A stretch of 39,711 nt of DNA, from NCBI GenBank assembly GCA_021781495.1, contig JAJXWS010000026.1, forward strand, positions 1 to 39,711, given 5' to 3'. Origin of the DNA: Acidobacteriota bacterium. Its GTDB lineage: Bacteria; Acidobacteriota; Terriglobia; Terriglobales; Acidobacteriaceae. Within the stretch, counting starts at the first letter, position 1. The number at the start of each line of letters is the position of its first letter. The notes beneath the pieces are model-generated. The model was given only the letters and a program-made list of their open reading frames with translations, searched no databases and was not told the origin of the DNA. A program made the translations under genes and the position numbers. Shown here in pieces: positions 13,812 through 31,712 of this stretch.

Positions 13812-15437
13812 ATGCGCATGACCCCTTCGCCGAAACGCTCGGCCCTCCTCGCCCTTCTCTTCGCGGGCCTCTTCTGCCTTGCCGCAGCCCTGCCCGCCTC
13901 CGCCGCTGACGCCCCCAGGCTCGTCCAGAAAGACGGCCGCTACGCCCTCCTGGTCGACGGCAAGCCCTACCTCGTCCTCGGCGGGCAGATTCACAACTCC
14001 AGCGCCTGGCCCAGTGAGCTGCCCCAGGTCTGGCAGTCCATGGCCGCTCTCCACGCCAACACCGTCGAGGCCCCTGTCTACTGGGAGCAGTTTGAGCCCC
14101 AGGAGGGCCACTTCGACTACACCAACGTGGACCAGCTCATCCAGGGCGCCCGCGCTCACAACCTGCACGTCGTCCTGCTCTGGTTCGGCACCTGGAAGAA
14201 CGGCAACAACCACTACGCGCCCGCATGGGTCAAGAGCGACACCCGGCGCTTCCCGCGCATCACGCGCCCTGACGGCGAGCTCATCGACGTCTTCTCGCCC
14301 CTCGGCCGCAACACCCTGCAGGCCGACAAGACCGCCTTCGCCACCCTCATGCGCCACCTCAAGCAGATCGACGGCGACCAGCACACCGTGCTGTTCATGC
14401 AAGTCGAAAACGAGTCCGGCAACATCGGCAGCGTGCGCGACTTCTCCGCCGAGGCCAACCGCGAGTTCGCCGGGGCCGTCCCCGCCGATCTGCTCGCCGC
14501 CGCCGCCAGGCAGCCCGGCACCTGGAGCCAGGTCTTCGGCTCTGAGGCGGACGAGATATTCCAGGCCTACCACCAGGCCAAGTACATCAATGAAATCGCC
14601 GCCGCCGGCAAGGCGGAGTTCAACATCCCCTGCTACATCAACGTCTGGATCGACTATCCGCCCGCCGAGTTGCCGCAACGCCAGCTAGACCAGCCCGGCA
14701 TCGCCTATCCCAGCGGCGGCGCCGTGCAAAAGCTCGTCGGCCTCTGGCGCAAGCTCGCCCCGGCCATTGACATGATCGGCCCCGACATCTACACCGACGA
14801 CTCGCCCTACTATCGCGAGACCATGCACGCCTACCACCGCGCCGACAATCCTCTCTGGATCCCCGAGACCGGCCGCAGTGACAGCTTCGCCAAGTTCTTC
14901 TTCTATGCCCTCGGCGACGGTGCCATCGGCTTCTCGCCCTTCGGCGTCGATCAGAGCGGCTGGAACATCCTCGGCGACGAGCCGTGGAAGGCCCACTCCT
15001 ACAACTACTCCCTCATCGGCCCCATGGACCGCGAGATCGCGCAGCTCCAGTTTGACGGCAAGCTCAAGACCGCCGTCGAGGAGCCCGGACAAGCCACGCA
15101 GGAGCTCAGCTTCGACGGCTGGCAGGCAACCGTAGCCTTCGGATTCCCCCAGCCCGACGGCCGCCGCGCCCCCGGCACCAAAGATGCGCACGGCTCCGCG
15201 GTCGTCGCCCAGCTCGGCCCGGATGAGTTCCTGGTCACCGGCATCGACGCCAGCGTCGTCTTTCACCTGCCCGGCAAGCTGCCCTGGATTCGCAGCCAGA
15301 TCCTCACCGCCGAGCAGGGCGCCTATGAGAATGGCGTCTGGAAGCCCGTGCGCCTCTGGAACGGCGACGAGACCGACCGCGGCCTCAGCTTCCACAACAC
15401 GCCTGAAGTGGTGCGCGTCCGCATGCAGCGCTTCTAG
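13812..15437 (+). CDS. Secreted beta-galactosidase-like glycoside hydrolase (GH35 with DUF5597-type C-terminus)
   Basis: The 541-residue protein has a Sec signal peptide (hydrophobic residues 10-28, cut after ASA). A clan-A TIM barrel typical of GH35 exo-beta-galactosidases follows: LGGQIHNSSAWP at the first strand, then NTVEAPVYWEQFEPQEG. MQVENESG at 196-203 has the acid/base Glu201, and WIPETGRSD carries the nucleophile Glu352. The last 170 residues form a beta domain like the DUF5597 domain of Cellvibrio-type GH35 enzymes. Such enzymes release terminal galactose, for example from xyloglucan side chains. GGAGG lies ten bases before the first ATG; a second ATG at 13818 is possible. A LacI-type operator overlaps its promoter, linking it to the regulator and receptor downstream. 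Confidence 0.9.
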   Translation: MRMTPSPKRSALLALLFAGLFCLAAALPASAADAPRLVQKDGRYALLVDGKPYLVLGGQIHNSSAWPSELPQVWQSMAALHANTVEAPVYWEQFEPQEGHFDYTNVDQLIQGARAHNLHVVLLWFGTWKNGNNHYAPAWVKSDTRRFPRITRPDGELIDVFSPLGRNTLQADKTAFATLMRHLKQIDGDQHTVLFMQVENESGNIGSVRDFSAEANREFAGAVPADLLAAAARQPGTWSQVFGSEADEIFQAYHQAKYINEIAAAGKAEFNIPCYINVWIDYPPAELPQRQLDQPGIAYPSGGAVQKLVGLWRKLAPAIDMIGPDIYTDDSPYYRETMHAYHRADNPLWIPETGRSDSFAKFFFYALGDGAIGFSPFGVDQSGWNILGDEPWKAHSYNYSLIGPMDREIAQLQFDGKLKTAVEEPGQATQELSFDGWQATVAFGFPQPDGRRAPGTKDAHGSAVVAQLGPDEFLVTGIDASVVFHLPGKLPWIRSQILTAEQGAYENGVWKPVRLWNGDETDRGLSFHNTPEVVRVRMQRF

Positions 15438-15496: not shown

Positions 15497-16507
15497 CTAT
15501 CGCGCCGGCGCGGGCCCGGTCGATTTCCGGACGATCAGTTGGGTGGGAAGGGCAAACTGCAACCCCGTCTGCGACGCGTCTTCCTCGGTCTTCTGCAGCG
15601 CCTCAAACAGCATCCGCGCGTACTCCACCCGCGAGATCCGCAGCGTCGTCAGCGGCGGATACACAATGTCGCTCATCTCAATGTCGTCGCAGCCCACAAT
15701 CGAGATGTCCTGCGGAATCCGCAATCCCTTTTCGTAGATCGCGCGCAGCGCTCCGATGGCCATCAGGTCGTTGGCCGCCACCACCGCCGTAGGAATCTCC
15801 GGCTGCGACAGGATGCGGGCCATGGCAGCCGCGCCGCCATCAATGCGGTAGTTTCCCTCCTCAATCCAGCCCTCGCGCGAGGCCATGCCCAGCTTGATCG
15901 CCGAGTTCAGGAACGACTCCATGCGGATGCGCGAGGTCAGCGGCCCGGGGTTGCCGCCAATGTATCCCACATGCCCGTGGCCAAGAGCGTGCAGATGGTC
16001 CGCAACCTTCGCCATCCCGCCCTGGAAGTCTACGGCGATGTCGCTCAGTCCCGGGCCAACGCGATAGTGGTCCGTCGTCACCACCGGAATCCGGTTCTGC
16101 ATCAGCGGCGCCAGCGCGGCCGCCTCCTGCTCTGAGGCCAGAATCGCCACCCCATCCACCCGCCGCAGCAGCATCCGGTGCAGCGAGCGCTGGGCGCGCG
16201 TGGAGTGGAAGTCTGTGTTCGCCACCAGCAGGTCATAGTCGTTCTGGAACAGCAGCCCCTCGAAGAGCTTCACCACCTCGGTAAAGAAGGGGTTCGCCAC
16301 GTCCGGAATCACAATGCCGTAAATCTGGCTCTTGCCGCTCTTCAGGTGAACCGCGCCCTGATTGGGCACAAAGTTCAGATCCCGGATCACCTGGCGGACG
16401 CGCAGCGTCGTCTCCTCGGTCACCTTGCTGGACCCGTTCAGAACGCGCGAAACGGTGGCGCTTGAGACGCCGGACAGCCTGGCAATCTCCCGGATACTGA
16501 TGGTCAT
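15497..16507 (-). CDS. LacI-family transcriptional regulator
   Basis: The 336-residue protein has the LacI layout. The N-terminal helix-turn-helix is SIREIARLSGVSSATVSRVL at residues 3-22, followed by NGSSKVTEETTLRVRQVIRDLNF and the hinge helix. A periplasmic-binding-protein-like sensor starts near YGIVIPDVANPFFTEVV. Sensor motifs such as RRVDGVAILAS, GHVGYIGG and AVVAANDLMAIGALRAI are present. The ligand is probably a sugar, given the convergent GH35 gene and the divergent TonB receptor. GGGGGAG lies a few bases before the ATG. A perfect 16-base palindrome sits 54 bases upstream, near the -35 region, so autoregulation is likely. Confidence 0.95.
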   Translation of the reverse strand: MTISIREIARLSGVSSATVSRVLNGSSKVTEETTLRVRQVIRDLNFVPNQGAVHLKSGKSQIYGIVIPDVANPFFTEVVKLFEGLLFQNDYDLLVANTDFHSTRAQRSLHRMLLRRVDGVAILASEQEAAALAPLMQNRIPVVTTDHYRVGPGLSDIAVDFQGGMAKVADHLHALGHGHVGYIGGNPGPLTSRIRMESFLNSAIKLGMASREGWIEEGNYRIDGGAAAMARILSQPEIPTAVVAANDLMAIGALRAIYEKGLRIPQDISIVGCDDIEMSDIVYPPLTTLRISRVEYARMLFEALQKTEEDASQTGLQFALPTQLIVRKSTGPAPAR

Positions 16508-16849: not shown

Positions 16850-19800
16850 ATGAAGTTCAAACGCCAATGGGCACTCGCAGCGTTCGCCATCTTTGCATTT
16901 CTGGCGACCGCGCAAGTCCTGCTGGGGCAGGCCGACCAGGGCACGATCACGGGTGTTATTCAGGACCCGTCCGGCGCTGTGATCGGCAATGCCAGCGTAA
17001 CCCTTACAAGCCAGGACACCGGCCTGGTTCTCAAAAGCAAGGCCGATGGCACGGGCGTCTATGTGTTCTCGCCCATCAAGATCGGCAACTACCAGGTAAC
17101 GGCCGCCGCGCCGGGCTTTGCCAAGACCACCCAGACCAACCTGCATCTCAGTCTGCAGCAGAGACTTAACGTCGTCATCACGCTCCAGCCCGGCGCCGCC
17201 AGTGAGACCGTAACCGTCTCCACTGAAGCGCCCCTGATGCAGACCCAGGAGAGCTCGGTCGGCCAGGTCATTGACACCAAGACCATCGACAGCATCCCGC
17301 TCAACGGCCGCAACTGGGTCTTCATCGCCCAGCTCGCCTCCGGCGCGGTACCGCCAGAGGGCTCCCGCGGCGCCGGCAAGGGCGACTTCAACGCCAACGG
17401 CCAGCGCGCCGAGCAGAACAACTTCATCCTCGACGGCGTCGACAACAACGTCAACGTGGTGGACTTCTACAACGGTGCCAGCTTCGTCGCCCAGCCTCCG
17501 CCAGACGCCCTCGCTGAGTTCAAGGTTCAGACCAGCGACTACTCCGCCGAGTTCGGCCACTCCGCCGGCGCGGTCGTCAACGCCAGCTTGAAATCGGGTA
17601 CAAACCAGCTCCACGGCAGCGCGTGGGAGTATCTCCGCAACACCATCTTCGACACCCACGACTGGAACGCCGAGCAGCTCCCCGTCTCGCCCTATCACGA
17701 GAACCAGTTCGGCGCTACGCTCGGTCTGCCCATCCTGCGCAACAAGCTCTTCTTCTTCGGCGACGCGCAGGCCAACCGCATCACCTACAGCGAAACCTCC
17801 ACCCTCACCGTGCCCTCGCTCCTGCAGCGCAGCGGCAACTTCTCTGAGATTCTTGACCCCACGCTCTCCGGCAACCCTGCCGTCCAGCTCTATCAGCAGA
17901 GCAGCAATGCGCCTCCGGTGGCGGTCCCGAACAACGATCTCTCCACCATGAGCGGTGTCGTGCTCAACCAGACGGCGCTCAAGATGCTCAGCTACTATCC
18001 CAAGCCGAACGCCAACAACGGCAAGCTCTACAACAACTACGTTGTCGCCCGTCCGGTCATCGATAACACCTTCCAGTGGGATACCCGCATGGACTGGAAC
18101 ATCAGCGCCAAGGACAGCGCCTACTCCCGCTTCAGCTACTGGAACGAGATGGGCCACAACGCTCCGCCCCTCGGCAACATCCTGGACGGCGGCGGCTTCG
18201 GCGATGACGGCAAGCAGAAGGATATGGGCCAGAACTTCATGCTCTCTGAGACCCACATCATCACCCAGACCATGACCAACGAAGCGCGCGTGGGTTACAA
18301 CTACATCCACACCGGCTTCCAGCACCCCAACGCGGACAACCTGAGCTTTGCGTCCAGCGTCGGCTTTGGTGGCATCCCCACCGCGCCGCTCAACGGCGGC
18401 CTGCCCTACGTGTCGGTCAACGGCATCTCCCACTTCGGCAGCCCCACCTGGTCCACCACAGACGAGCACGAGAACGTCTATCAGATCCTCGACAACGTAA
18501 CCAAGATCGCCGGCAACCACGCCCTCAAGGCGGGTGTCAGCTTCCAGAGCATCCGCTTCTCCACGCTGCAGCCGCAGCAGTCCCGCGGCAGCTACAACTA
18601 CACCGGCGTCTACACCAGCAACCTCAACGCGCCCAACACCGGCTACGGCGTGGCCGACTTCGTGCTCGACCAGCAGAACAGCGCGGGTCTCTCCAACGAA
18701 GTCACCAACGGCGATGCCCGCTGGGACGATGCCGTCTACTTCCAGGATGACTGGCGCATCACTCCCAAGATCACCGTCAACGCCGGCATCCGCTGGGAGT
18801 TCTTCCAGCCCTACAAGGATGTGGGCGGCCTGCAGGCCTCCTACAACATGACCGGTCCCTCCACGCTCAACACCTCCACCGGATACGGCAGCGGCAAGGC
18901 CCAGTACCAGATTCCGAGCGAGGGCAAGGCGTACGCGGAGAAGATCTTCCAGCAGACCAACAACGCATTCCCCAACGTGCTGGCCAAGGACAACATCGCC
19001 CTGGTCTACACCTCGGATCCGCACATCATCAAGGCGCAGCACACCAACTTTGCTCCCCGCCTTGGCATCTCCTACTCGCCGAATGAAAAGCTGGTCATCC
19101 GTGCCGGCTACGGCATCTTCTTCGGCGGCCTTGAGAGCACCGGCTACTGGCCAAACCTGGGTGAGAACTATCCCTTCCAGTACGCGGCCAACTTCCCGTC
19201 GCAGAGCTGCGGAACCTACTCCTGCCCCACCGACGGCATCACCATTGCGAACGGCTTCACCTCCATCATCGCCAATGGCTTTGCCAGCAACGTCACCAAC
19301 CTCACCATGCGCGGCTCTGACGCGGAAGCCAAGACTCCCTACACGGAGGACTACAACCTCTCCGTCGAGCGGAGCATCACCAACAGCATCGTCGCCACCG
19401 CCAGCTACGTCGGCAACTCCTCGCATCACCTGCAGGTGTTCCCCGATCCCAACAACCCGCTGGCGCTGCAGAACCCCAGCAACACCTCGCAGTACTCGCG
19501 TCCGTTGCCGGACTTCGGCGGCTCGTCCTACACCGCCTATGCCGGCGCCAGCAACTACAACTCACTCCAGACCAAGGTGGAGAAGCGTCTCTCCGGCGGC
19601 AACAGCCTGCTGGTCACCTACACCTGGGCGCACTCTCTTGACGATGCTCCCACGCCGCTCGGCACCACCGGCGACTGGGGCTATCGCCAGAACAACTTGA
19701 TTCCGATCAAGATGGACTACTCCAACACCGGCTTTGACACCCGTCATCGCATCACCCTCAACGCCTACTACGATGTGCCCTTCGGCGCCGGCCGCAAGTT

Positions 19801-20455
19801 CCTCAACCACCCCGGCATCGCGGACTACATCGTGGGCGGCTGGTCGGCCAACGCCACCTTCGTGGCGCAAACCGGCAACCCCTTCACCGTGGGCCCGTCC
19901 GGCATCAGCGGTCCGAACAACGGCGGCAGCCGCGCCATCAAGGTCAAGAACCCGTTCTCGACCGGCGGCACCTTCCAGGCCCCCAACCCGAGCCTGGTCG
20001 CCAGCGTGGACTGCGCAGCCAAGACGCGCAACCGCAACAACTGGTACAACCCCTGCTCGTTCAAGAATCCCTGGAACACCAAGGATGCTACCTACGAGCT
20101 GGCTCACTACATCCCCGTGGATGCTGCGGATGCGGCGGCCACCGGCGCCACCATGCCGGTCTACGTCACCGCTCTCTCTGACGTCCTGGGCTACCTGGGC
20201 GGCAAGCGTGACGAGGTCTATGGCCCCGGCTACGAGCGCGTCAACATGTCCATCTTCAAGAACTTCAAAACCTATCGCGAGCAGAGCCTCCAGTTCCGCT
20301 CCGATATCTTCAACGTCTTCAACACGCCTTCTCTGGGCCAGCCCAGCAACACCGGCATCAGCTCCACGGGCGGCGAAATCACGGCTCCGCGCAACCTCCA
20401 GAGGCTCACTCCGGACTCGCGCTTCATCCAGCTCTCGCTCAAGTACTCGTTCTAG
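16850..20455 (+). CDS. TonB-dependent receptor, Oar-like, with N-terminal carboxypeptidase-regulatory domain
   Basis: The 1201-residue outer-membrane protein starts at ATG 16850, preceded by GGAGG. A signal peptide (MKFKRQWALAAFAIFAFLAT, cut after LLGQA) is followed by a CarboxypepD_reg-like beta-sandwich (GTITGVIQDPSGAVIGNASV) at residues 26-105. A plug domain follows with VIDTKTIDSIPLNGRNW, FILDGVDNN and GAVVNASLKSGTN. The rest is a long barrel with repeated aromatic/Asp strands, ending in KYSF with a C-terminal Phe for barrel assembly. Such receptors import oligosaccharides using TonB energy. It is divergent from the LacI gene, with one operator between the promoter and the start, so galactoside uptake together with the GH35 enzyme is likely. 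Confidence 0.93.
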   Translation: MKFKRQWALAAFAIFAFLATAQVLLGQADQGTITGVIQDPSGAVIGNASVTLTSQDTGLVLKSKADGTGVYVFSPIKIGNYQVTAAAPGFAKTTQTNLHLSLQQRLNVVITLQPGAASETVTVSTEAPLMQTQESSVGQVIDTKTIDSIPLNGRNWVFIAQLASGAVPPEGSRGAGKGDFNANGQRAEQNNFILDGVDNNVNVVDFYNGASFVAQPPPDALAEFKVQTSDYSAEFGHSAGAVVNASLKSGTNQLHGSAWEYLRNTIFDTHDWNAEQLPVSPYHENQFGATLGLPILRNKLFFFGDAQANRITYSETSTLTVPSLLQRSGNFSEILDPTLSGNPAVQLYQQSSNAPPVAVPNNDLSTMSGVVLNQTALKMLSYYPKPNANNGKLYNNYVVARPVIDNTFQWDTRMDWNISAKDSAYSRFSYWNEMGHNAPPLGNILDGGGFGDDGKQKDMGQNFMLSETHIITQTMTNEARVGYNYIHTGFQHPNADNLSFASSVGFGGIPTAPLNGGLPYVSVNGISHFGSPTWSTTDEHENVYQILDNVTKIAGNHALKAGVSFQSIRFSTLQPQQSRGSYNYTGVYTSNLNAPNTGYGVADFVLDQQNSAGLSNEVTNGDARWDDAVYFQDDWRITPKITVNAGIRWEFFQPYKDVGGLQASYNMTGPSTLNTSTGYGSGKAQYQIPSEGKAYAEKIFQQTNNAFPNVLAKDNIALVYTSDPHIIKAQHTNFAPRLGISYSPNEKLVIRAGYGIFFGGLESTGYWPNLGENYPFQYAANFPSQSCGTYSCPTDGITIANGFTSIIANGFASNVTNLTMRGSDAEAKTPYTEDYNLSVERSITNSIVATASYVGNSSHHLQVFPDPNNPLALQNPSNTSQYSRPLPDFGGSSYTAYAGASNYNSLQTKVEKRLSGGNSLLVTYTWAHSLDDAPTPLGTTGDWGYRQNNLIPIKMDYSNTGFDTRHRITLNAYYDVPFGAGRKFLNHPGIADYIVGGWSANATFVAQTGNPFTVGPSGISGPNNGGSRAIKVKNPFSTGGTFQAPNPSLVASVDCAAKTRNRNNWYNPCSFKNPWNTKDATYELAHYIPVDAADAAATGATMPVYVTALSDVLGYLGGKRDEVYGPGYERVNMSIFKNFKTYREQSLQFRSDIFNVFNTPSLGQPSNTGISSTGGEITAPRNLQRLTPDSRFIQLSLKYSF

Positions 20456-20527: not shown

Positions 20528-20622
20528 GCGGCGCTCTTCGCCGTGGCCCTGCGGCCTCTGCCGCCCTCACGGCCGCGCGCATCGCGTCTTGTACCATGAA
20601 TCCAGCAGACGAGGAAGGGAAC

Positions 20623-22014
20623 GTGCGCGCAGGCATCGGCATTCGACAGGGAATCGCGTCGCTCGCACTCTGCTGTACGGTTGCCGTACTCCAGGCGCAG
20701 GCTCCCGCCGCGTCTCCCATGGAGCAGCAGTTCCAGGCCGCCATGGCCGCGCAGGACAAGGGCGACCTCGTCCGCGCCGAGTCGCTTCTCCTCGCCCTCC
20801 ACGCTCATCATCCCGGCCTCTTCGCCGTCGAGGAGTCCCTCGGCCTCCTCTACGTCGCGCAGGAAAAGTACCAGCAGGCCATCCCGTTCCTCCAGTCCGC
20901 AGCGCAGGCGCAGCCCTCGTCCGACGTGGCTCACGCCAACCTCGGAGCCGCCTATTACAAGCTCCATCGCAACCCGCTCGCCCTGCGCGAATTTCAAACC
21001 GCATCCCGGCTCAACCCGCGCAATGCGGAGACGCAGCAGGCCCTCGGCCGCCTCTGGATGGAGGCCAACAATCCCGCCAGTGCCTCCACGGCCTTTCTCG
21101 CCGCGCTCCAGCTCAAGCCGGACGATCCCGATCTCTGCATGGCCGCTGCGCAGTCCCTGCAGGATGCAGGCAAATCCGACGCGGCCAAATCCGTACTCGC
21201 AGCCATGCCCGGCGTCGACCAGTCCGCCCCAGCGCAGTCGCTCCTCGGCGACATCGAAGAGAAGCTCGGCAACGTGCAGCAGGCCGGCAAGCATTATCAG
21301 CGCGCCGTCGAGCTCGACCCGAGCGAGCCGAACGTCTGGATGCTCGGCGTCGAGCTGCTCCGCCACTGGACCTTCGCCGCCGCCGCGCAGGAGTTTGAGG
21401 CCGCCGCAAAGCAGTTCCCGCAGAGCCGGCGCATGCAGCTTGGTTTAGGCGCGGCCTACTTCGGCAACGGCAGTTACGCCAGCGCCATCCCCGTCTTTGC
21501 CGGCCTGCTCGATGCCGACCCCAACAACGCGCTCTACGCTGAGCTGCTCGGCATGTCCTGCACCGCCGTCATGCAGGAGGCGCGTCCCCGCTGCACATCG
21601 CTGCAGAGCTACGCCCTCGCGCATCCCCGCGATGCCCGCGCCGCCGTCTACGCATCCGCGCAGATTCTGCAGGGCTCACCCACCCAGCAGCAGCTCCAGC
21701 TCGCGCATCGCATGCTCCAGAGCGCCATCGACGCCGATCCCAAACTCGCCGATGCCCGCTTCCAGATGGGCGTCCTGCAACAGGCCCAGGGAGACTGGCC
21801 CGCCAGCATCCCCAGCCTGCAGGCCGCGCTCCGCCTCAAGCCGGACCTTGCCGCCGCTCACTATCGCCTTGCGCTTGCCTACTGGCGCGCCGGCCGCAAG
21901 CCCGAGGCGCAGGCTGAGATGAAGCTTCAGCAGAAGTACTACCGCCAGCAGCAGGACGATCTCGACCAGCGTCTCCGCCAGATCACCACGTTCCTCGTCG
22001 ACGTGCGTCACTAG
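20623..22014 (+). CDS. Secreted or periplasmic TPR-repeat protein
   Basis: I place the start at GTG 20623 because AGGAAGGGA lies just upstream, and the protein then begins with a normal signal peptide (MRAGIGIRQGIASLALCCTV, cut near LQAQA). An ATG at 20596 in the same frame lacks a ribosome-binding site. The 463 residues form successive tetratricopeptide repeats, recognisable from spaced A-x-x-x-L-G-x-x-Y patterns such as AHANLGAAYYKL, AETQQALGRLWM and LAAAHYRLALAYW. The sequence ends with an approximately 30-residue Gln/Lys-rich helix. TPR proteins act as scaffolds and the binding partner is unknown. It follows the receptor terminator, so it has its own promoter. Proteins of this type often accompany acidobacterial sugar-uptake loci. 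Confidence 0.88.
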   Translation: MRAGIGIRQGIASLALCCTVAVLQAQAPAASPMEQQFQAAMAAQDKGDLVRAESLLLALHAHHPGLFAVEESLGLLYVAQEKYQQAIPFLQSAAQAQPSSDVAHANLGAAYYKLHRNPLALREFQTASRLNPRNAETQQALGRLWMEANNPASASTAFLAALQLKPDDPDLCMAAAQSLQDAGKSDAAKSVLAAMPGVDQSAPAQSLLGDIEEKLGNVQQAGKHYQRAVELDPSEPNVWMLGVELLRHWTFAAAAQEFEAAAKQFPQSRRMQLGLGAAYFGNGSYASAIPVFAGLLDADPNNALYAELLGMSCTAVMQEARPRCTSLQSYALAHPRDARAAVYASAQILQGSPTQQQLQLAHRMLQSAIDADPKLADARFQMGVLQQAQGDWPASIPSLQAALRLKPDLAAAHYRLALAYWRAGRKPEAQAEMKLQQKYYRQQQDDLDQRLRQITTFLVDVRH

Positions 22015-22040: not shown

Positions 22041-23240
22041 TCAGGCCAGCAGCTTCAGCAGTCCGTCCATCGCAATCGGCTGCGCAGCCTGCGTGCCCTT
22101 GGGCAGCCCCGGCCCAATCGCCACCGCCTGCCCCGTCCGCTCGCACCATGCCAGGAACCGCGCACTCTCCGCGCCCGCCAGCCGGCTCTGGTTGATCCAC
22201 GTGTAATACGCGCCAAAGTCCGCATCCACCAGCGATCCGGCATAGTCCATCTCCGCCGCGCCGCCGGCAAACATCTCGTTCATGCCGCGCTGTTTCTGCC
22301 GCGGACCAAAGCGCACCAGCAGGCTCGTCGGCTCCGCGCGCCGCAGCAGCTCGCGTGCTGACCACTGCGCAAACGTCGTGCTGAAGATCTGCGTCCCCGC
22401 GCCCTCGCCGTATACGCTCAGCACAAAGCGGTCCACCAGCGCGTCGTTTGAGGCCCGCGCCGGATCCTTCGGCGTCCACGTGGCCATCCGGCTGCGCAGC
22501 ATCTCCGGCCCCGCGGAGCCGCTGCCGATCACCGTCTCCACCTGCCGCAGCACCGCCTCGCGCATCGCCGCGGACTCCGCCCAGCTGAAGCGCTTCACCG
22601 CATCCGACCGCACCTCGCGCGGCGCGCCTCCATCCACGTACCAGTGTTCATACGGCGCCGGGGTCTTCTCCGCGCGCGCCGCCAGATACTCCAGCAGCGT
22701 CTGCATCCCGTCCGCGCCCGTCACCTGTTGAAACAGCACGCCCTGCCCGGCCAGCTTGCGAAACAGCGGATACCCGTCCTTGCGCAGCTCCGCGCCCAGC
22801 ACCACCGCCGTCCAGCGCGGCGCGGCGGGCGTGGCCGCGGGCATCGCCCGGTGCACCGCGTCCACAAACTGCTCGCTCGTCCGATGAAAGCCGTCAATCT
22901 GGTGCGACGCCCACAGATACGCGCTCAGGTCTTCCTCAAACTTCGACGGCGACCGAACCCAGTCCTCCGCCACCAGCGCCGCCGGCAAATTCAGCTCCGC
23001 AAAGCCCTGCGTCAGCCGGTGACGCTCCTCTACCGGCAGCCCGGCCAGAAAGGCAAGCCGGTTCTCCACCGCCGCGCGCTCGCGCGGAAAGCTCGTATCC
23101 AGCCGGATTACGTCGCGCAGCAGCACCGCCGCCAGCACCACCGGCAGATCGCGCAGCAGCTCCAGGCGGTCCTCCGCCGTCTTGCGGGCCAGCGGGCCGT
23201 AGCTGCGAAAGTCGCGTGCATTCAGGTCGCGCGGCTGCAT
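22041..23240 (-). CDS. Unknown protein paired with the DUF1501-like gene (partner B1)
   Basis: The 399-residue protein has no signal peptide or membrane segment, so it is probably cytosolic. Its ATG (23240-23238) shares one base with the TGA of the upstream gene, so the two are translationally coupled. The C-terminal third contains a core (FVLSVYGEGAGTQIF, then QWSARELLRRAEPTSLLVRF) that matches the protein encoded at 25877-27139 (FVLNLWLSGNGALIF, EWTASEALRRARPRMLVARF). A YYTWINQSR/LAWCE stretch also corresponds. The first 250 residues are helical and more divergent. I do not recognise a family and no catalytic motif stands out. A role in maturation of the co-encoded Tat substrate is a guess based only on pairing. 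Confidence 0.7.
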   Translation of the reverse strand: MQPRDLNARDFRSYGPLARKTAEDRLELLRDLPVVLAAVLLRDVIRLDTSFPRERAAVENRLAFLAGLPVEERHRLTQGFAELNLPAALVAEDWVRSPSKFEEDLSAYLWASHQIDGFHRTSEQFVDAVHRAMPAATPAAPRWTAVVLGAELRKDGYPLFRKLAGQGVLFQQVTGADGMQTLLEYLAARAEKTPAPYEHWYVDGGAPREVRSDAVKRFSWAESAAMREAVLRQVETVIGSGSAGPEMLRSRMATWTPKDPARASNDALVDRFVLSVYGEGAGTQIFSTTFAQWSARELLRRAEPTSLLVRFGPRQKQRGMNEMFAGGAAEMDYAGSLVDADFGAYYTWINQSRLAGAESARFLAWCERTGQAVAIGPGLPKGTQAAQPIAMDGLLKLLA

Positions 23241-24415
23241 CACAGCACCTCGTTCAGCACGTTGCCCTGTGCCAGCGGGGTCGGAAATCCCAGCAGCCTG
23301 CCCACCGTGGGCACCAGGTCCAGCGAGTCCACGGCCCGCTCCACAAACAGCCCCTGCCGCACCCCCGGTCCCAGCGCCATCATCCACGTCGTCCGCGAGG
23401 CCCGGTCGCCCGTGCGATGATGCTGGAACCCGTTGCCCGCCGGGTTCATGTCGGAGTCGCGTCCAAAGTCCGGTAGCACAAACATCGTCGTCCTGCCCGC
23501 ATACTCCGCGTCCGCCTGCAGCGCATTCCATATCTCCACGCACAGCCGGTCCGTCCGCTGAATCCCGTCAATGTACAGCGAGTACGCGCCGGAGTGCGCC
23601 ACATCAATGTCGTGCAGCGTAATCCACATCAAGCTCGGAGCCGCCTGCCGCATCGCCTGCAGCGCCACCCATGTTGAAAGCTCATCGGCGCTCTGCATCG
23701 TCAGCGCCTGCTTCTGAAACTCTGCCGGCGAAACCCGCAGCATCTTCTCCAGCTGCTCCAGTTGCATCTCCGTCTGTGCCGTGCCTGCGTTCCAGTGCGG
23801 TTCTTCGTAGGTGTCGCGTAACAGCCGGTCCAGCTCCGCCCCGTTGCTTCCTGCTCCACCATTGCCCGGCTTCGTCGCCTGCAGCAACTGCTTCGGCAGC
23901 ACCACCTCCGCGCCGTAGCCGCTGCCAAAGCCGCGATACGTGCTGCAGCCCATGTTGCGGAACCCATTGCTCGGCGAGATCAGCCACGCCTCCCGCGCCT
24001 CCCGCTGCATCCCCTTGCGAAAGTACTCAAACAGCGTCGGATGCTCCGGAGCCACGCCGGAGAAGTTGTTGAACGTCTCATACACGCCCGTCGCCAGGCT
24101 CGTCGTCGCCACATAGTGGCCCAGGATGCCGCGATTGATCACCTGCCCGTAGAACGTGCTCTGCGGCAGCAGCGTCTTCAGCAGCCCCGGAATATTCTCC
24201 TGCCCGTCCGGCGCAAAGGTCTCCTCATCGCGCGCCCCGCCGCCAAAGGTCACAATCACCACCTTCTGGCCCGGCGAGCCCGCCAGCGCGTGCAAGGGCA
24301 GGGTAGAGCTGACTGCGGAAGTAGCCGTGCAGGCCGACGCCAGCCGCAGAAACTCCCTGCGGCTCCAGACAAGCGGGGAGCTGCCTGGCAAAGAAGACCC
24401 CTTGGGGAAGATCAT
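23240..24415 (-). CDS. Tat-exported DUF1501/alkaline-phosphatase-like protein (A1)
   Basis: The 391-residue protein (ATG 24415; a TTG at 24424 is an alternative) has a twin-arginine signal WSRREFLRLASA with Arg19-Arg20 and a hydrophobic stretch to about residue 45. The mature part has the alkaline-phosphatase/sulfatase-superfamily outline seen in DUF1501: VIVTFGGGARDEETFAP at the first metal-site loop, APSLMWITLHDIDVAHSGAY, then FVLPDFGRD followed by a QHHR pair. Gly replaces the first metal Asp and Phe follows the Asp in the DH motif, as in DUF1501 rather than true phosphatases, so activity is uncertain. It is homologous to the protein at 24699-25880. It starts the minus-strand pair and is coupled to the unknown partner downstream. 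Confidence 0.8.
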   Translation of the reverse strand: MIFPKGSSLPGSSPLVWSRREFLRLASACTATSAVSSTLPLHALAGSPGQKVVIVTFGGGARDEETFAPDGQENIPGLLKTLLPQSTFYGQVINRGILGHYVATTSLATGVYETFNNFSGVAPEHPTLFEYFRKGMQREAREAWLISPSNGFRNMGCSTYRGFGSGYGAEVVLPKQLLQATKPGNGGAGSNGAELDRLLRDTYEEPHWNAGTAQTEMQLEQLEKMLRVSPAEFQKQALTMQSADELSTWVALQAMRQAAPSLMWITLHDIDVAHSGAYSLYIDGIQRTDRLCVEIWNALQADAEYAGRTTMFVLPDFGRDSDMNPAGNGFQHHRTGDRASRTTWMMALGPGVRQGLFVERAVDSLDLVPTVGRLLGFPTPLAQGNVLNEVL

Positions 24416-24698
24416 GCCTCTCAATGCCTCGCATCCAGCCTATCACCGCAACACGTCCGTCCGATACAGCAAATCCCCGCATATTTACTGGCGAATTCGC
24501 ATCTTTCCCCGCCTCCCGCGCGCGCCTTCCACCGGCCCGTTTCGCCGCCCCGCAAAGCCTCGCTTACGCCCCGCTTCGCAACGCGCGGCAACCCTCACTT
24601 GGCAGTGATACGAATCACACCCAAGCGTGCATCCGGGTGTTAGATTCACACCCGATACTCGGTCGCGGCGAACCCCTCGCCCGCCATCCCGGTGATCC
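24416..24698. promoter_or_regulatory. Divergent control region between the two paralogous pairs
   Basis: This 283-base region separates the two mirror-image operons. It contains a GTGAT/ATCAC inverted repeat at 24605-24618. Three half-sites follow: ACACCC (24617-24622), GGGTGT (24635-24640) and ACACCC (24648-24653), the last two forming an inverted repeat with a seven-base spacer. No convincing -35/-10 pair is visible and there is no gene. Confidence 0.45.
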
Positions 24699-25880
24699 AT
24701 GGAAACCACCCGCAGGAACATCCTCAAGGCCGCCGCCGCGCTGCTGGTTGAGGGCGTAGTCGCCGCCCGTCATCCCGCCTTTGCGCAGCAGTCCCCGCCG
24801 CGCGCCGGGCGCAAGGTCATCCTCGTCACCTGCGGCGGCATCCGCCGCGAAGAGAGCTTCTCCGCCACCGGCGTTCGCCACATCCCCCATCTCTATCAGG
24901 ATCTGCTTCCGCAGGGCGTCTTCTATCCGCTCATCCGCAACAACGGTGTCACCTCCCACTTCAACACCATCTCCAGCATCCTTACCGGCCACTGGCAGCA
25001 TCTCGACGACTGGGGCAAGACCCCTCCCGCCAGCCCCACGCTCTTTGAGTACCTGCGCAAAGACCGCAATCTCTCGCAGGATCAGGCCTGGCTCATCTCC
25101 AGCAACAAGGCGCTCACCAACCGCATCGGCGCCAGCTCCGTGCGCGACTACGGCCAGCCCTACGGCGCCAACGTCGTCTTCCCCAAGCAGTTGCTCATCG
25201 ATGCCGTGGTGCGCGCCGCCCAGCAGGGCCGCGCCGTCCGCAGCGCCGACCGCGCCTCCGTTCTTCCTGAGCTCGAGGCCATGCTCGAAACGCAGAACTA
25301 CGAGGGCCTCGGCTGGTCCGTCTCCGGAGAAACCTCCGCGCTCAACCCCGCCGCGCAAAACGCCGTGCAGCAGGCCATCCACGATCTCGTCAGCGCCACC
25401 AGCGTCCCAGCCACCGGCGACGAGTTCACCTGGCTCGTCAGCGCCGAGGTCATGCGCCGCTTTGCTCCCTCGCTGCTCGTCATCACGTTCTCTGACATGG
25501 AAGTGGCCCACTTCGGCTCCTACGCCATGCACGTCGCCGGCGTGCGCACCGTCGATCGACTCGTCCACGAGCTGTGGACGCACGCGCAGTCCCTGCCCGC
25601 CTACCGCGGCAACACCACCCTCTTCGTCCTCCCCGAGTTCGGCCGCGACATGGACGGCTCCACCACCAACGGCTTCTTCAACCACCGCCAGAACGCCGAG
25701 TCCACCCGCAACACCTGGATGCTGGCTCTCGGCCAGGCCGCTGCCAAACCGCAGATCGTCGAGCAGCCAGTCGAGCAGATCGACATCTGCCCCACCATCG
25801 CCTCCATCTTCGATCTCAAAGCGCCAGGCCCTGCCGGCAATGCCCAGTCCGGCAAGGTCCTGCCGGGGTTGCTGCTATGA
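24699..25880 (+). CDS. Tat-exported DUF1501/alkaline-phosphatase-like protein (A2)
   Basis: The 393-residue protein opens with a twin-arginine signal (METTRRNILKAAAALLVEG, cut near AFAQQ). The body parallels the minus-strand gene: LVTCGGIRREESF, PTLFEYLRKD, AWLIS, YGANVVFPKQLL, APSLLVITFSDMEVAHFGSY, FVLPEFGRD, GFFNHR and STRNTWMLALG. These fit the DUF1501/sulfatase-like fold with an atypical metal site: Gly-Gly at the first loop, Glu-Phe where phosphatases have Asp-His. The protein is predicted to be periplasmic, with unknown substrate. Its stop overlaps the start of the partner gene (ATGA at 25877-25880). Only a weak GGTGAT precedes the ATG. Confidence 0.8.
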   Translation: METTRRNILKAAAALLVEGVVAARHPAFAQQSPPRAGRKVILVTCGGIRREESFSATGVRHIPHLYQDLLPQGVFYPLIRNNGVTSHFNTISSILTGHWQHLDDWGKTPPASPTLFEYLRKDRNLSQDQAWLISSNKALTNRIGASSVRDYGQPYGANVVFPKQLLIDAVVRAAQQGRAVRSADRASVLPELEAMLETQNYEGLGWSVSGETSALNPAAQNAVQQAIHDLVSATSVPATGDEFTWLVSAEVMRRFAPSLLVITFSDMEVAHFGSYAMHVAGVRTVDRLVHELWTHAQSLPAYRGNTTLFVLPEFGRDMDGSTTNGFFNHRQNAESTRNTWMLALGQAAAKPQIVEQPVEQIDICPTIASIFDLKAPGPAGNAQSGKVLPGLLL

Positions 25881-27139
25881 CCATCCCCGCCCAGCCCTCG
25901 CCTGCCGCCGATCTCGCCGCCTATCGCCGCCTCATCGCGCGCCTGCCCGTCACCCTGCGCCCCGAGCTCAATGCCCGCCTCGCGCAGTGGCCCACGCTCT
26001 TCCCGTTTGAGCAGGATCAGTTCGCCGCCTTCCTTCGCGGCATCCAGTCCACTCCGTCCTCTCAGCTCGACGCGCTCACCCGCCCCCTCTGGGATCTCGA
26101 AACCCGCATGGGCGTTGCCCGCTGGGACTTCTCGCAGTCCGAGAGCACCGTCGAAAACGCCTCGCTCCTCGCCCGCTCGCCCTACTATCCCGAGTGGCGG
26201 CAGCAGGTCGATCGCTTCTTCCAGGCCATGGAGCACAACGCGCAGCCGTCCACTGCAAGTCAGCCCGGCCCCGCGCAAAGCCGCCTCGTGCTGCTCCTCC
26301 TTCCCGAGCATCTCCCCGTGGACCCCGCCGAACTCGATCAGCGCTGGCGCTCCACCGGCCGCGCCTTCCGCATCGACGGCGATCCCCAGAGCCTCCGCCG
26401 TCTCGCCCTCCAGGGACAGCCCGGCACGCCTTCGCTCGCCTCGGTGCTGCACCCGGCAGAGGACACCTCCCAGCTCTGGCTCATCGACGCAGAAGACGCT
26501 CTCGCCCGCGACGCCGCGCCTGCTCTCGCCGCCTCCGCATCCTCGCTCAGCTTTACCGGCCTCGCCGCCTTCCGCCGCCAGTTCCTCGCCGGCATCAACA
26601 CCATCCCGCGCAACATCTCCGCCACCGATCAGGTCATCGCGCAGTTGCGCCGCCAGGACTGGAGCCCCTGGTATCCCGCCGCCCTCGCCGGCCAGCCCCG
26701 CCTGCAGCAGTTCGTCCTCAACCTCTGGCTCAGCGGCAACGGCGCTCTCATCTTTCCCAACGCCTTCGTCGAGTGGACCGCATCCGAGGCGCTTCGCCGC
26801 GCGCGTCCCCGCATGCTCGTCGCGCGCTTCGGCATGCAGACCCGCCCCAAGCCCTTCACCAGCATCGCCATCTTTGAGGATCAGCAGAAGATCAGCGCCC
26901 TGCCCAGCGTGGACGACCCCGAGAGCAGCGCACTCGATGCCGTCATGCTCTCCCACTACATCTGGCTCGCAGCGCTCCGCTATCCCCAGGGCGACAACAC
27001 CTTCTGCCTCTGCATCGCAGAGCATCCGCGCACCGCCTGGCTCGTCGCTCCGCCCAATCGCTGGCCCGCCTGGGCTCCCGGCCAATCCATCGCGCCCCAG
27101 CAGCTCTACCAGTGGCTCGCCGCCCAGCTCGCGTCGTAA
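25877..27139 (+). CDS. Unknown protein paired with the DUF1501-like gene (partner B2)
   Basis: The 420-residue protein starts MTIPAQPSPAADLAAYRRLI at the ATG that overlaps the A2 stop. It has no export signal. The N-terminal 120 residues are helical (FPFEQDQFAAFLRGIQ). The middle has a VLLLLPEHLPVDPAELDQRW strand-helix unit. The C-terminal third shares a clear core with the minus-strand partner: QFVLNLWLSGNGALIFPNAF, then EWTASEALRRARPRMLVARF and SHYIWLAAL. Identity elsewhere is low, so the duplication is old or the N-terminus has diverged. I cannot name a family. Same order, same overlap and same strand logic as the other pair indicate a functional unit with the Tat substrate. Confidence 0.7.
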   Translation: MTIPAQPSPAADLAAYRRLIARLPVTLRPELNARLAQWPTLFPFEQDQFAAFLRGIQSTPSSQLDALTRPLWDLETRMGVARWDFSQSESTVENASLLARSPYYPEWRQQVDRFFQAMEHNAQPSTASQPGPAQSRLVLLLLPEHLPVDPAELDQRWRSTGRAFRIDGDPQSLRRLALQGQPGTPSLASVLHPAEDTSQLWLIDAEDALARDAAPALAASASSLSFTGLAAFRRQFLAGINTIPRNISATDQVIAQLRRQDWSPWYPAALAGQPRLQQFVLNLWLSGNGALIFPNAFVEWTASEALRRARPRMLVARFGMQTRPKPFTSIAIFEDQQKISALPSVDDPESSALDAVMLSHYIWLAALRYPQGDNTFCLCIAEHPRTAWLVAPPNRWPAWAPGQSIAPQQLYQWLAAQLAS

Positions 27140-27260: not shown

Positions 27261-27944
27261 ATGGAAAAGGTACTCGCCCCTCCGCCCGTCGCGGCCACCC
27301 GCATCGTTCCCCGCCTCATCCGCCATCACGCCGCGCTGCTTGCGGTCTCCGTCCTCAGCGTGGCCGCGCTCTACTTCACCCGCCCGTATAAGGACTGGAT
27401 CAGCCGCCTCAGCTTTGCCACCGCCTATCCCGCGCTGGCGCTGCTCGTTGCCACGCTCCTCATCGGCCCCTGGAACCTGCTTCGCAAGCGCCGCAATCCC
27501 ATCTCCAGCGACCTCCGCCGGGACGTCGGCATCTGGGCCGGCATCCTCGGCCTCCTGCACGTTGCCATCGGCCAGAACGTCCACCTGCGCGGCCGCCCCT
27601 GGCTGTACTACGTCTACTCCGCGCCGGAGCATCACACCGGCCTGCGCCACGACGTCTTCGGCCTCGCCAACTACACCGGCCTCATCGCCACCCTGTTCCT
27701 GCTCGCGCTGCTCGTCACCTCCAACGACGCCTCCATCCGCCGTCTGGGCACGCCGCGCTGGAAGCAGTTGCAGCGCTGGAACTACGCCATCTTCGTGCTG
27801 GTCGCCGTCCACGGCATCGGCTATCAGACCATCGAAAAGCAGAAGCTTCCCTTCGTCTCCACGCTCGCCGTCCTGCTCCTCCTCGCCCTCGTCTTCCAGT
27901 TTGCCGGCGTCCTCCGGCGGCGTGCCGCCGCTGCGCGCACGTAG
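27261..27944 (+). CDS. Ferric-reductase-like transmembrane protein
   Basis: The 227-residue membrane protein has about six helices: LLAVSVLSVAALYF, LALLVATLLIGPWNLL, IWAGILGLLHVAIGQ, YTGLIATLFLLALLVTS, YAIFVLVAVHGIGYQ and TLAVLLLLALVFQFAGVL. His in LLHVAIG and VAVHGIG are candidate haem ligands, as in ferric-reductase-like/MsrQ domains that carry electrons across the membrane. No FAD or NADPH domain is attached. The ATG at 27261 is the first in frame; AGGAG lies about 22 bases upstream, further than usual. It follows partner B2 after 121 bases and could be co-transcribed. No MsrP-type gene is adjacent, so the electron acceptor is unknown. The 3' end contains one copy of a 25-base repeat. Confidence 0.8.
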   Translation: MEKVLAPPPVAATRIVPRLIRHHAALLAVSVLSVAALYFTRPYKDWISRLSFATAYPALALLVATLLIGPWNLLRKRRNPISSDLRRDVGIWAGILGLLHVAIGQNVHLRGRPWLYYVYSAPEHHTGLRHDVFGLANYTGLIATLFLLALLVTSNDASIRRLGTPRWKQLQRWNYAIFVLVAVHGIGYQTIEKQKLPFVSTLAVLLLLALVFQFAGVLRRRAAAART

Positions 27945-28250: not shown

Positions 28251-31200
28251 ATGAATCTACGCCGAGTATCGAGAGCCCTTCTGGGCCTCATGCTCACTCT
28301 TCTCGTGTTCGGCTTCTCGCGGACACTGCTCGGCCAGGCCGTGAATGGCACGGTGCTGGGCACAGTCAACGATGCTACCGGCGCGGCCGTTGCCAACGCC
28401 CACGTCACTGCCACGGAAAGCGCCACCGGCGCCGTTCACGACTCCGTCACCAACGACAGCGGCAACTACACGTTCCCCGGCCTGCAGCCCGGAACCTACG
28501 TCATCACGGTGGAAGCCAAGGGCTTCAAGCGCGCCTCGCAAGCCAACATTCCGCTGCTCAGCAACACCACCAACCGCGTCGATATGACCCTGCAGCCCGG
28601 CGACGTCTCTGAGACCGTGACCGTCACCACCGCGCCTCCCCTCCTGCAGACCGACCGCGCCGACATCAGCACCAAGATCGAGGCCCAGGCCGTACTGGAA
28701 ATGCCCCTCGGCACTAACCGTAACTTCCAGTCGCTCCTCAACCTCGTCCCCGGAACCGCGCCCGCTGTCTTCCAGCACTCGCAGTTCTTCAATGCTTCAA
28801 GCAGCCTGCAGACTGAGGTCAACGGCCTGCCCCGTCTCGGCAACCTCTACCAGATTGAGGGCATCGACGACGACGAGCGCACCGGCCTGCTCCAGATCAT
28901 CATCCCCCCGGCCGAGGCCATCGGCTCCGTCGACATCTCCACCAACAACTTTGAGGCTGAGCTGGGCCGCGCCACCGGCGCCGTCACCAACGTCACCCTC
29001 AAGTCCGGCACCAACCAGTTCCATGGTTCGGCCTTTGAGTTCATCCAGAACAACGCCACCAACGCCCGCTCCTACTTCGGCGGACCGCTCGGCCATCTGT
29101 CCTACAACTACTTCGGCGGCAGCATCGGCGGCCCCATCCTCAAGGACAAGGCCTTCTTCTTCGGCGACTATCTGCGCACCGTGGACCACGAGGCCATCGG
29201 CAGCACCTTCACCATGCCGGACGCCCGCTGGTACACCAACGCCGGCGTCACCTCCGGTTGCTCTGACCCGAATGGCTGTATCGACCTCAGCGCCGCGCTC
29301 GTCGGCACCACCGGCCAGATCTACAACCCGTACACCGGCGATGGAACGTCTGCTAACCCCCGCACGCCCTTCACCAACAACCAGGTTCCCATCAGCATGG
29401 TGAATCCAGTCTCCCTCAAGATTCTCCAGGGCATCAACGCCGCAGCGGCCAAGTACGGCACCCTCAACTCCAACAAGTCGCTCTCGAACTTCTCCAACAA
29501 CTACACCACCAACCTGCCCTTCACCAAGACCACCGACAGCTTCGACACCAAGCTCGACTACGCCTTCAATGAGAAGAATCATCTCAGCGGCCGTTGGAGC
29601 TGGCAGCGCGTCGTCACCTTCCAGCAGGCGGCCTTCGGTAACTTCTTCGGTGGCCCCGCCGGCGGCGGCTTTGAGGGCAACGGCAACCAGACCGCCTACA
29701 GCACCGGCCTCAACTACGACCACGTCTTTTCGCCCACGTTCTTCACGGAGGCGCGCTTTGGCGTAGCGCACCTGCGCAATACGGCGTTGCCCAACGACTA
29801 CGGCACCACCGATGCCACCACGCTCGGCATCCCCGGCGTCAACATCAGCGGACAGGCCTTCACCACCGGCCAGGCGGCCATCACCATCAACGGCGGCGTC
29901 TCCAACCCGATCATGGGCTACTCCGCCTCCGAGCCGTGGATCCGCGCCGAGGCCAACATCGACTTCGTCAACAACTGGACCAAGATCGTTGGCAACCACA
30001 CCATCAAGTGGGGCCTCGACCTTCGCCGTGTTCGCGACGACCTCCTGCAGGATCAGACCTTCAGCCCGCGCGGCGCCTTCACGTTCTCTGACCTGCAAAC
30101 CTCGCAGTCCGGCGCAAAGACCAACATCGCCAATGACATGGCCAGCTTCCTGCTCGACGTACCCAGCCAGGTGGGCCGCGACCTCAACACCTTCTTCCCT
30201 GCCTATCGCCAGTGGTGGATCTTCTCCTTCATCAGTGACAAGTGGCAGGCCTCGCCCAAGCTCACCGTGGATCTCGGCATTCGCTGGGAGCTCTATCCGC
30301 CCGCCACGCCGCGTCACTCCGGCGGCTTCTCTAACTACGATCCCACCACCAACAACCTCGTCATCGCCGGCATCGGTGGCAACCCGCTCAACCTGGGCAT
30401 GAAGACCCGTTACCGCTACTTCGCCCCGCGTACCGGCTTCTCCTACCGCGTCACAGACAGCACGGTGATCCGCGGCGGTTTCGGCATCAGCTACGCGCCC
30501 TACCCGGACAACAACTACGCCTTCAACTATCCCATCCGCTCCAACAACGCGTATGGCCCGGTCGGCACGTCGGCCTTCACGCCTGCGGTTCTGGCAGACG
30601 GCGTAACCGTTGCCACCTTCCAGGCGGGCTTCCCCGCGCCGGTTCCGGTCTCCATCCCCTCCAACGGCATCATCGCCGCCAACACGCCCACCCTGATCAA
30701 GCAGGTCTACTCCTACATTCCCAAGGACTTCAAGAATCCCTACGTCGAGTCCTGGAATGCGGCCCTGCAGCAGGCGCTCCCCGGCGACATGTCCTTCCAG
30801 ATCGCCTACGTGGCCAACCACGGCGTCGATATCGCCGGCGGTCAGAACATCAACCTGCCCCAGACCTACGGCGGCGGCTCGGCCTCCGATCCGGAGAACA
30901 TCCTCTTCGGGCGCACCGCGGCCACCAACCAGTACTTCCTGGGCTTCTCGTCCAACTACGAGTCGCTCCAGGCGCAGCTCACCAAGCGCTTCTCCCACAA
31001 CCTCAGCTTCACTTCGGCATTTACGTGGGGCAAGGGCATGGGCTACATCGGCGGCGACGACGGCGGCCTCATGTTCTACGCCAACTGGCGCCGCAACTAC
31101 GCCCCCAACGACTACGACCGCGCCAAGAACTTTGAGCAGAGCTTCACCTACGAGCTGCCCTTCGGCCACGGTCATCAGCTCTTCACCAACGGTGTCGGCG

Positions 31201-31712
31201 ACGCCGTCTTCGGCGGCTGGAGGATCTCCGGCATCGTCTCCGCGGTCTCCGGCACGCCCTTCACGGTCAGCGCCAACGGCGGCACGCTCAACACCCCCGG
31301 CACCAACCAGACCGCCAACATCACCGGCAGCCTGCATGTTCTGCATGGCATCGGCACCAAGACCCACTGGTTCGATCCCAGCTCCTTCTCGCAGCCGTCC
31401 GGTTGCACGTCTACGCCCTGCACCAGCCCCGGCCTCGGCAACACCGGTCGCAACCAGTTCCGCGGACCCGGCTACCTGCAGGACAACGTATCGCTCTTCA
31501 AGAAGTTCACCGTCTATCGTGAGCTGGCGCTGGAGACCCGTCTCGACGTCTTCCAGCTCAGCAACACGCCGCAGTTCAACAACCCCAACAGCGGCAGCAT
31601 CACGGCCTCCAACTTCGGCCAGATTACCAGCACCCTCGGCAGCGGCCAGGGCAGCGTAAACGGCGTCGGCGGCGGTCGTACTCTGCAGGGCTCGGCCAAG
31701 TTCACCTTCTAG
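28251..31712 (+). CDS. TonB-dependent receptor, Oar-like, with N-terminal carboxypeptidase-regulatory domain
   Basis: The 1153-residue outer-membrane receptor is preceded by GGAGG eight bases before the ATG. It has a signal peptide (hydrophobic residues 9-27, cut after LLGQA), and a CarboxypepD_reg-like domain (VLGTVNDATGAAVANAHV to PGTYVITVEAKGF). A plug segment follows with MPLGTNRNFQSLLNLVPG, IEGIDDDERTGL and TNVTLKSGTNQFHGSAF. The barrel ends in KFTF with a terminal Phe. It differs widely in sequence from the receptor at 16850-20455, so the two are not a recent duplication. It precedes three Tat-exported sugar enzymes in the same direction and probably brings their substrate into the periplasm. 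Confidence 0.93.
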   Translation: MNLRRVSRALLGLMLTLLVFGFSRTLLGQAVNGTVLGTVNDATGAAVANAHVTATESATGAVHDSVTNDSGNYTFPGLQPGTYVITVEAKGFKRASQANIPLLSNTTNRVDMTLQPGDVSETVTVTTAPPLLQTDRADISTKIEAQAVLEMPLGTNRNFQSLLNLVPGTAPAVFQHSQFFNASSSLQTEVNGLPRLGNLYQIEGIDDDERTGLLQIIIPPAEAIGSVDISTNNFEAELGRATGAVTNVTLKSGTNQFHGSAFEFIQNNATNARSYFGGPLGHLSYNYFGGSIGGPILKDKAFFFGDYLRTVDHEAIGSTFTMPDARWYTNAGVTSGCSDPNGCIDLSAALVGTTGQIYNPYTGDGTSANPRTPFTNNQVPISMVNPVSLKILQGINAAAAKYGTLNSNKSLSNFSNNYTTNLPFTKTTDSFDTKLDYAFNEKNHLSGRWSWQRVVTFQQAAFGNFFGGPAGGGFEGNGNQTAYSTGLNYDHVFSPTFFTEARFGVAHLRNTALPNDYGTTDATTLGIPGVNISGQAFTTGQAAITINGGVSNPIMGYSASEPWIRAEANIDFVNNWTKIVGNHTIKWGLDLRRVRDDLLQDQTFSPRGAFTFSDLQTSQSGAKTNIANDMASFLLDVPSQVGRDLNTFFPAYRQWWIFSFISDKWQASPKLTVDLGIRWELYPPATPRHSGGFSNYDPTTNNLVIAGIGGNPLNLGMKTRYRYFAPRTGFSYRVTDSTVIRGGFGISYAPYPDNNYAFNYPIRSNNAYGPVGTSAFTPAVLADGVTVATFQAGFPAPVPVSIPSNGIIAANTPTLIKQVYSYIPKDFKNPYVESWNAALQQALPGDMSFQIAYVANHGVDIAGGQNINLPQTYGGGSASDPENILFGRTAATNQYFLGFSSNYESLQAQLTKRFSHNLSFTSAFTWGKGMGYIGGDDGGLMFYANWRRNYAPNDYDRAKNFEQSFTYELPFGHGHQLFTNGVGDAVFGGWRISGIVSAVSGTPFTVSANGGTLNTPGTNQTANITGSLHVLHGIGTKTHWFDPSSFSQPSGCTSTPCTSPGLGNTGRNQFRGPGYLQDNVSLFKKFTVYRELALETRLDVFQLSNTPQFNNPNSGSITASNFGQITSTLGSGQGSVNGVGGGRTLQGSAKFTF

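Follow-up and report, generated by a model that had tools for sequence, protein, structure and literature searches.

The stretch of DNA considered here (the window) comprises 39,711 nucleotides, positions 1 to 39,711 of the forward strand of contig JAJXWS010000026.1, from an Acidobacteriota bacterium of the family Acidobacteriaceae (assembly GCA_021781495.1). It carries two pairs of genes, which a preliminary description presented as a mirror-image duplication of a two-gene unit. Each unit encodes a protein with a twin-arginine translocation (Tat) motif and a partner that lacks one. We will use the terms A and B for these two proteins, and the numbers 1 and 2 for the two types. The features of the locus are as follows:

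22041..23240, minus strand: B1, type 1 partner without signal motif, 399 aa, with a 1-base overlap with A1
23240..24415, minus strand: A1, Tat-motif (SRREFLR) protein predicted to belong to the alkaline phosphatase (ALP) superfamily, type 1, 391 aa
24416..24698, no strand: gap of 283 bp between the divergent starts of A1 and A2
24699..25880, plus strand: A2, Tat-motif (TRRNILK) protein predicted to belong to the ALP superfamily, type 2, 393 aa
25877..27139, plus strand: B2, type 2 partner without signal motif, 420 aa, with a 4-base overlap with A2
Within B2 (predicted model): helical N-terminal part, residues ~1-130; stripped ALP-type fold, residues 131-420

The coordinates, the 1- and 4-base overlaps and the divergent arrangement are as first described. 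Base 23240 is common to the start codon of B1 and the stop codon of A1, and the A2/B2 overlap covers 25877-25880. The motifs named as common to the exported proteins and to the partners are also present in the alignments. BLASTP finds 133 identical residues in 381 aligned positions between A1 and A2 (225 bits, E = 1e-74) and 43 in 163 between B1 and B2 (60 bits, E = 2e-14), which shows each gene of the unit to be homologous to its counterpart in the other pair. The two units are old, diverged copies that lie back to back. Each query matches two places at E ≤ 0.01 in the draft genome (3.6 Mb, 95.75% complete), all of them inside the window, and no further A or B copies were found in this genome at that threshold. 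The single control region proposed earlier agrees with the divergent 283-bp gap and is a matter of geometry only, as a scan of 24380-24720 revealed neither a sigma-70-like promoter nor an intrinsic terminator; promoters of this kind may not be applicable in the phylum. A viral origin of A and B was ruled out, since none of the four proteins has a match in PHROGs at E ≤ 0.1.

The pairing recurs outside the strain. In wide loci that were chosen because they match A or B, B is the next gene on the same strand after A for 58 of 60 A open reading frames (ORFs). One of these loci is a duplicate, L216 (genome G221, from the same genus as the window genome) being the same as L035 from an uncultured Acidobacteriaceae, and leaving it out gives 57 of 59 distinct A ORFs. 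The 57 pairs include a broken copy (L225, in which A scores 165 bits) and a short A frame (L062). They consist of 30 pairs of type 1-1 and 27 pairs of type 2-2, and no mixed pair occurs. The two A ORFs that lack B, L206 and L224, are distant A-like relatives. The A-B pairing is real and conserved. An explanation in which A and B are linked merely as operon members, without contact between the proteins, is highly improbable given the adjacency in 57 of 59 cases and the exceptionless type matching, both of which persist despite variable surroundings and orientation.

The distribution was surveyed in an even draw of 297 genomes of the phylum, the window's own included. B is present in 23 of these genomes, 22 of which have A (E < 1e-100) beside it, and no genome among the 297 has A at E < 1e-100 without B. 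Of the 23, 21 belong to the window's own family and two to other families. With weaker matches included (to E = 3.7e-6), A is counted in 40 of 297; most of the added matches span the C-terminal third only, and they may be other members of the superfamily. Beyond the phylum, the search covered plasmids and one scan of genome contigs that reached close relatives only, namely ten relatives that are metagenome-assembled genomes of Acidobacteria or Acidobacteriaceae, one of the ten being a Granulicella sp. The plasmid search gave three partial matches for A, two of them annotated as sulfatase-like, and no match for B. Signs of decay were also seen: a broken second A-B copy at L225 (G205:C4) and, at L207 (G244:C33), a truncated B next to which no A is present; G244 is the 23rd of the genomes with B.

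As for the mirror image, the layout and the homology stand as described, but the term 'mirror-image duplication' covers the arrangement and not the way in which it arose. The pairs are in tandem at L051, L052 and L056 (OMP-TPR-A1-B1-A2-B2, where OMP is an outer-membrane protein and TPR a TPR-repeat protein) and at L059 (OMP-A1-B1-A2-B2). They lie tail to tail at L039 (with two genes between them), L047 and L048. Because the relatives show these layouts and the mirror layout is not conserved, the latter is probably a rearranged form of an ancient set of two pairs; an inversion of A1-B1 in the tandem order yields the layout of the window and would be the simplest explanation. No flanking repeats supporting an inversion were found at the locus. 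Inverted repeats as a possible cause of an inversion of A1-B1 were considered and dropped, as there are only two weak pairs, whose four arms all lie inside genes.

No Pfam or NCBIfam family is reached at its cut-off by A. A1 and A2 have no match to DUF1501 (PF07394; cut-off 27 bits) at E ≤ 1. Among the 38 aligned A sequences, which include the window's two, 8 match DUF1501 at E ≤ 0.1 (best 0.002) and 3 match Sulfatase PF00884 at the same threshold (best 0.00092). In profile comparisons with hhalign, A is close to DUF1501 (probability 94.7, E = 5.9e-8) and to sulfatases (E = 6.3e-9). The earlier label of A as DUF1501-like is thus borne out by the profile alignment, with the reservations that A falls below the Pfam cut-off and is equally close to sulfatases. 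Since A is below the Pfam cut-offs and similarly close to both profiles, it is better regarded as a separate family near both. The AlphaFold2 (AF2) model of A2 (pLDDT 79.0, pTM 0.81) points to an ALP-superfamily fold. In Foldseek, the model has its best match at E = 2.2e-9 and 423 matches at E ≤ 0.001, and its best VIA match is PafA (Z 26.9, root-mean-square deviation (rmsd) 2.9, 293 aligned). The fold matches of A include YejM, which we take to be a non-canonical member of the superfamily.

The putative active site of A was compared with that of L224, which served as the reference for a canonical site; this A-like protein comes from a different family in the phylum. It contains MDG, a Thr located ten positions ahead of the Gly of TG, D-x-x-x-H, NDHG and EHG; its residues 160-294 align with a solved iPGM (E = 0.00074), with the D..H, DHG and H positions matched. 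Counts for A come from a 57-row alignment from which near-duplicates and the far A-like hits L107-L114 were left out. In sulfatases, the nucleophile position carries a CxPSR-type motif. This motif is absent from A, in which the nucleophile position is His87 in 57/57 sequences, as against Thr in L224. Gly46 (56/57, one gap) stands where L224 has Asp, Phe314 (54/57; Leu in two, Met in one) stands where L224 has His, and [DE]FG (54/57) replaces the DHG of L224. The acids at 268 and 313 are present in 57/57, as are His271 and His329, and L224 has His at both of the latter positions. Asp266 is invariant too and could replace 268 as a ligand, as there is a one-residue difference in the spacing to His271. 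Lys163, Asp317, Asn324 and Arg330 are also invariant in 57/57, and Arg49 is present in 56 (one gap).

A therefore departs from the canonical pattern of two-metal ligands and a Ser/Thr/Cys nucleophile, as judged by sequence alignment. The altered residues suggest a rebuilt active site in which one metal site would be kept (acid 266/268, His271, His329) and the second would be lost through the changes of Asp to Gly46 and His to Phe314. The assignment of A residues to metal sites is our assumption and follows general knowledge of the superfamily. Two A-like genes deserve separate mention. L206 (6999-8174, plus strand) keeps most of the altered residues and has no B; its next gene looks like a membrane protein. 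L224 (6618-8696, minus strand) encodes 692 aa, with a canonical ALP-type, A-like N-terminal part followed by ~390 aa without similarity to B. A search for a B-like gene next to either of the two, or for one fused into the 692-aa protein, gave a best E of 0.29, and both possibilities were rejected.

B also reaches no Pfam or NCBIfam family at cut-off. The 37 B homologs give scattered weak Pfam matches (SelB-wing_2, DUF2064, Piwi and VMAP-M1), which were taken as chance because they are weak and occur in one or two members each, and a PDB sequence match at E = 0.45 was likewise taken as chance. The earlier statement that the partner is not DUF1800 agrees with the absence of a Pfam match and the hhalign E of 0.52, by which DUF1800 was ruled out. 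The partner had also been called unknown. This holds for the family databases; at the level of the model, it resembles a stripped ALP-superfamily fold and is probably a paralog of A. The AF2 model of B2 (pLDDT 90.2, pTM 0.90) has iPGM as its best VIA match (Z 14.1, rmsd 3.4, 189 aligned), with rows that span residues 131-420. The 50 VIA rows listed comprise sulfatases, phosphatases, NPP-type phosphodiesterases, iPGM, phosphonoacetate hydrolase, MCR-type transferases and YejM/PbgA, the last presumably accounting for four entries with uninformative titles. We take all of these families, and the Foldseek rows shown, to belong to the ALP superfamily.

The strand and helix order of the B model corresponds to that of the A model. 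The loop after strand 306-313 of A, which carries FGRD...NHR, has 24 residues, and its counterpart after strand 375-381 of B has four. The A-B profile alignment is collinear (hhalign E = 1e-4), and a larger set of sequences gives a score of 37.4, compared with a maximum of 26.4 among 100 column shuffles and with 14.8 for the reversed profile. Model and profile together make it probable that B is a degenerate paralog of A that has gained a helical N-terminal part and lacks the active-site loop.

The two proteins differ in their export signals. In the twin-arginine columns of A (n = 38), RR occurs in 32 sequences and KR in four; the two rows without the region are those in which a later start was chosen. 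Pfam TAT_signal is matched at E ≤ 0.1 by 15/38 A sequences. A loose Tat-like expression is found in the first 35 residues of 1/37 B sequences, and B starts overlap the A stop or come after it. The hydrophobicity of the first 60 residues (15-residue Kyte-Doolittle mean) has a median of 1.34 in A (range 0.50-2.09) and 0.89 in B; the values overlap, so this measure does not separate A from B. The Tat export of A proposed in the preliminary description is in line with the twin-arginine motif, from which A would cross the membrane via Tat. The periplasmic placing of the two-component system proposed there agrees with the motif on A, but it goes too far for B, which lacks a signal motif.

Adjacency, type matching, the one-sided Tat motif and the probable common fold together fit a heteromer of the hitchhiker kind. 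We infer, tentatively and with somewhat less than even confidence, that an enzyme with a rebuilt site (A) and a paralog with a deleted active site (B) form such a heteromer, which is exported on the Tat signal of A. A and B would be co-translated and assembled in the cytoplasm, and the complex would then cross the membrane, with B co-exported as a hitchhiker. In the periplasm it would act on phosphorylated or sulfated substrates, and the two types would be specialised forms of the system. The same observations on export bear on another explanation, in which B remains cytoplasmic and serves its own A as a dedicated chaperone for folding or proofreading, like the redox-enzyme maturation proteins of Tat substrates. 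The near absence of a signal motif in B (1/37, by the loose expression), the position of its start at or after the end of A, the strict 1-1 and 2-2 matching and the helical N-terminal part of B all speak for this role. The main part of B, however, resembles a degenerate ALP fold, unlike TorD-kind chaperones, which are all-helical, and the A-like L206 has no B beside it. A cytoplasmic chaperone role fits nearly as well as the hitchhiker heteromer, and taken by itself we consider it unlikely.

The genes around the two units suggest a setting for the A-B heteromer. The neighbouring features in the window are as follows:

13812..15437, plus strand: glycoside hydrolase (GH35/GH42-like, DUF5597)
15497..16507, minus strand: LacI-family regulator, homologs of which recur near A-B loci
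16850..20455, plus strand: large outer-membrane beta-barrel protein (CarboxypepD_reg + OMP_b-brl_4)
20596..22014, plus strand: TPR-repeat protein with an N-terminal hydrophobic stretch
27261..27944, plus strand: ferric-reductase-like/MsrQ-like membrane protein directly after B2 (context)
28290..31712, plus strand: second large outer-membrane protein, in the same sequence cluster as the first (context)

Directly upstream of A, a TPR homolog is found in 19/60 A rows and an outer-membrane protein in 6/60, counts that include L216 (a locus counted twice), L206 and L224; unlabelled neighbours may be undercounted, as gene calling missed the B at L221 that another search found. The order OMP-TPR-A-B is frequent, and there is a four-base overlap between the TPR gene and A at L063 and L064. 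Other recurrent neighbours of A-B are LacI regulators, glycoside hydrolases, an SSF symporter and UnbV/FG-GAP proteins, which suggests carbohydrate loci as the setting of the pair in Acidobacteriaceae. Substrates may be brought in to the heteromer by the outer-membrane and TPR proteins. An 875-aa ORF at 11043-13670 has no Pfam match at E ≤ 1e-5.

These neighbours also bear on an explanation in which A is a pseudo-hydrolase, a periplasmic or surface binding subunit that works with the outer-membrane and TPR proteins in a SusD-type role, with B as a structural partner. A TPR or outer-membrane protein lies directly upstream of A in 25/60 rows, the second metal site and the nucleophile of A are replaced, and the non-canonical YejM is among the fold matches. 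The invariance of His87, Lys163, Asp317, Asn324, His329 and Arg330 (57/57) and of Arg49 (56, one gap) suggests instead that chemistry has been kept, and a similar residue set is kept in DUF1501. On balance, this binding role is quite unlikely.

Returning to the exported heteromer, the pairing, the type matching, the confinement of the Tat motif to A and the altered residues of A are read from sequence, while both folds and the derivation of B from an A-like protein are predicted. The reading is favoured by a correlation, within each type, of the distances among A proteins with those among B proteins (r = 0.905, n = 30; r = 0.935, n = 27; 0/999 permutations each), which however also follows species descent. 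Several observations weigh against this reading. A-like proteins without B exist, one with most of the altered residues (L206) and one with a canonical site (L224). In one B protein, P0002, the N-terminal region includes a hydrophobic stretch with a value of 1.80, within the range of A; P0002 is taken to lack a signal because of its alignment with the folded region of the other B sequences. Foldseek gives weak matches for B (best E 6.3e-3, TMq 0.27, nothing at E ≤ 0.001), the hhalign probability between A and B is 57% and falls to 33% with more sequences, and B compared with DUF1501 (E = 0.37) and sulfatase (E = 0.21) is at chance level. The carbohydrate link, finally, comes entirely from neighbouring genes.

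If the heteromer is real, a pseudoenzyme paralog as the regular partner of a Tat-exported enzyme would make an unusual Tat pair. In any case, two families without a Pfam or NCBIfam name gain a probable fold, a partner and a candidate active site. A may be a one-metal catalytic subunit, with His at the nucleophile position, whose degenerate, signal-less partner is carried by Tat, and DUF1501 may share its chemistry; we regard this as rather doubtful. A His in place of the nucleophile that is common to DUF1501 would, if true, offer a concrete activity test for a large uncharacterised family.

Literature searches, which covered open-licence PMC papers, found no paper describing the A-B pair, as judged by titles and the beginnings of abstracts. 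The nearest known system is DUF1501, for which one source describes a twin-arginine motif and operons shared with DUF1800 (PMC5122149), and which is called uncharacterised in another (PMC4452313). DUF1501 has a conserved His at the place of His87 of A, and the D-x-H, EFGR and DH motifs align; in contrast, A is below the Pfam cut-off and its partner B is not DUF1800. The same genome has a separate DUF1800-DUF1501 pair, L176 and L115 (G000:C33:4837-6798 and 6935-7969). The predicted fold of A, and more weakly that of B, resembles the ALP/sulfatase superfamily (PafA, NPP, iPGM, sulfatases), as does the one putative metal site in A. A differs from the canonical members in having no Cys/Ser/Thr at the nucleophile position and, by the alignment, no second metal site, and B in having no active-site loop. 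Hitchhiker export through Tat occurs in E. coli, with HybOC and PaoABC as examples (PMC4273604). These complexes have the Tat signal on one subunit and a partner without it, as A and B do, but they are redox enzymes, whereas A and B appear to be of one fold type.

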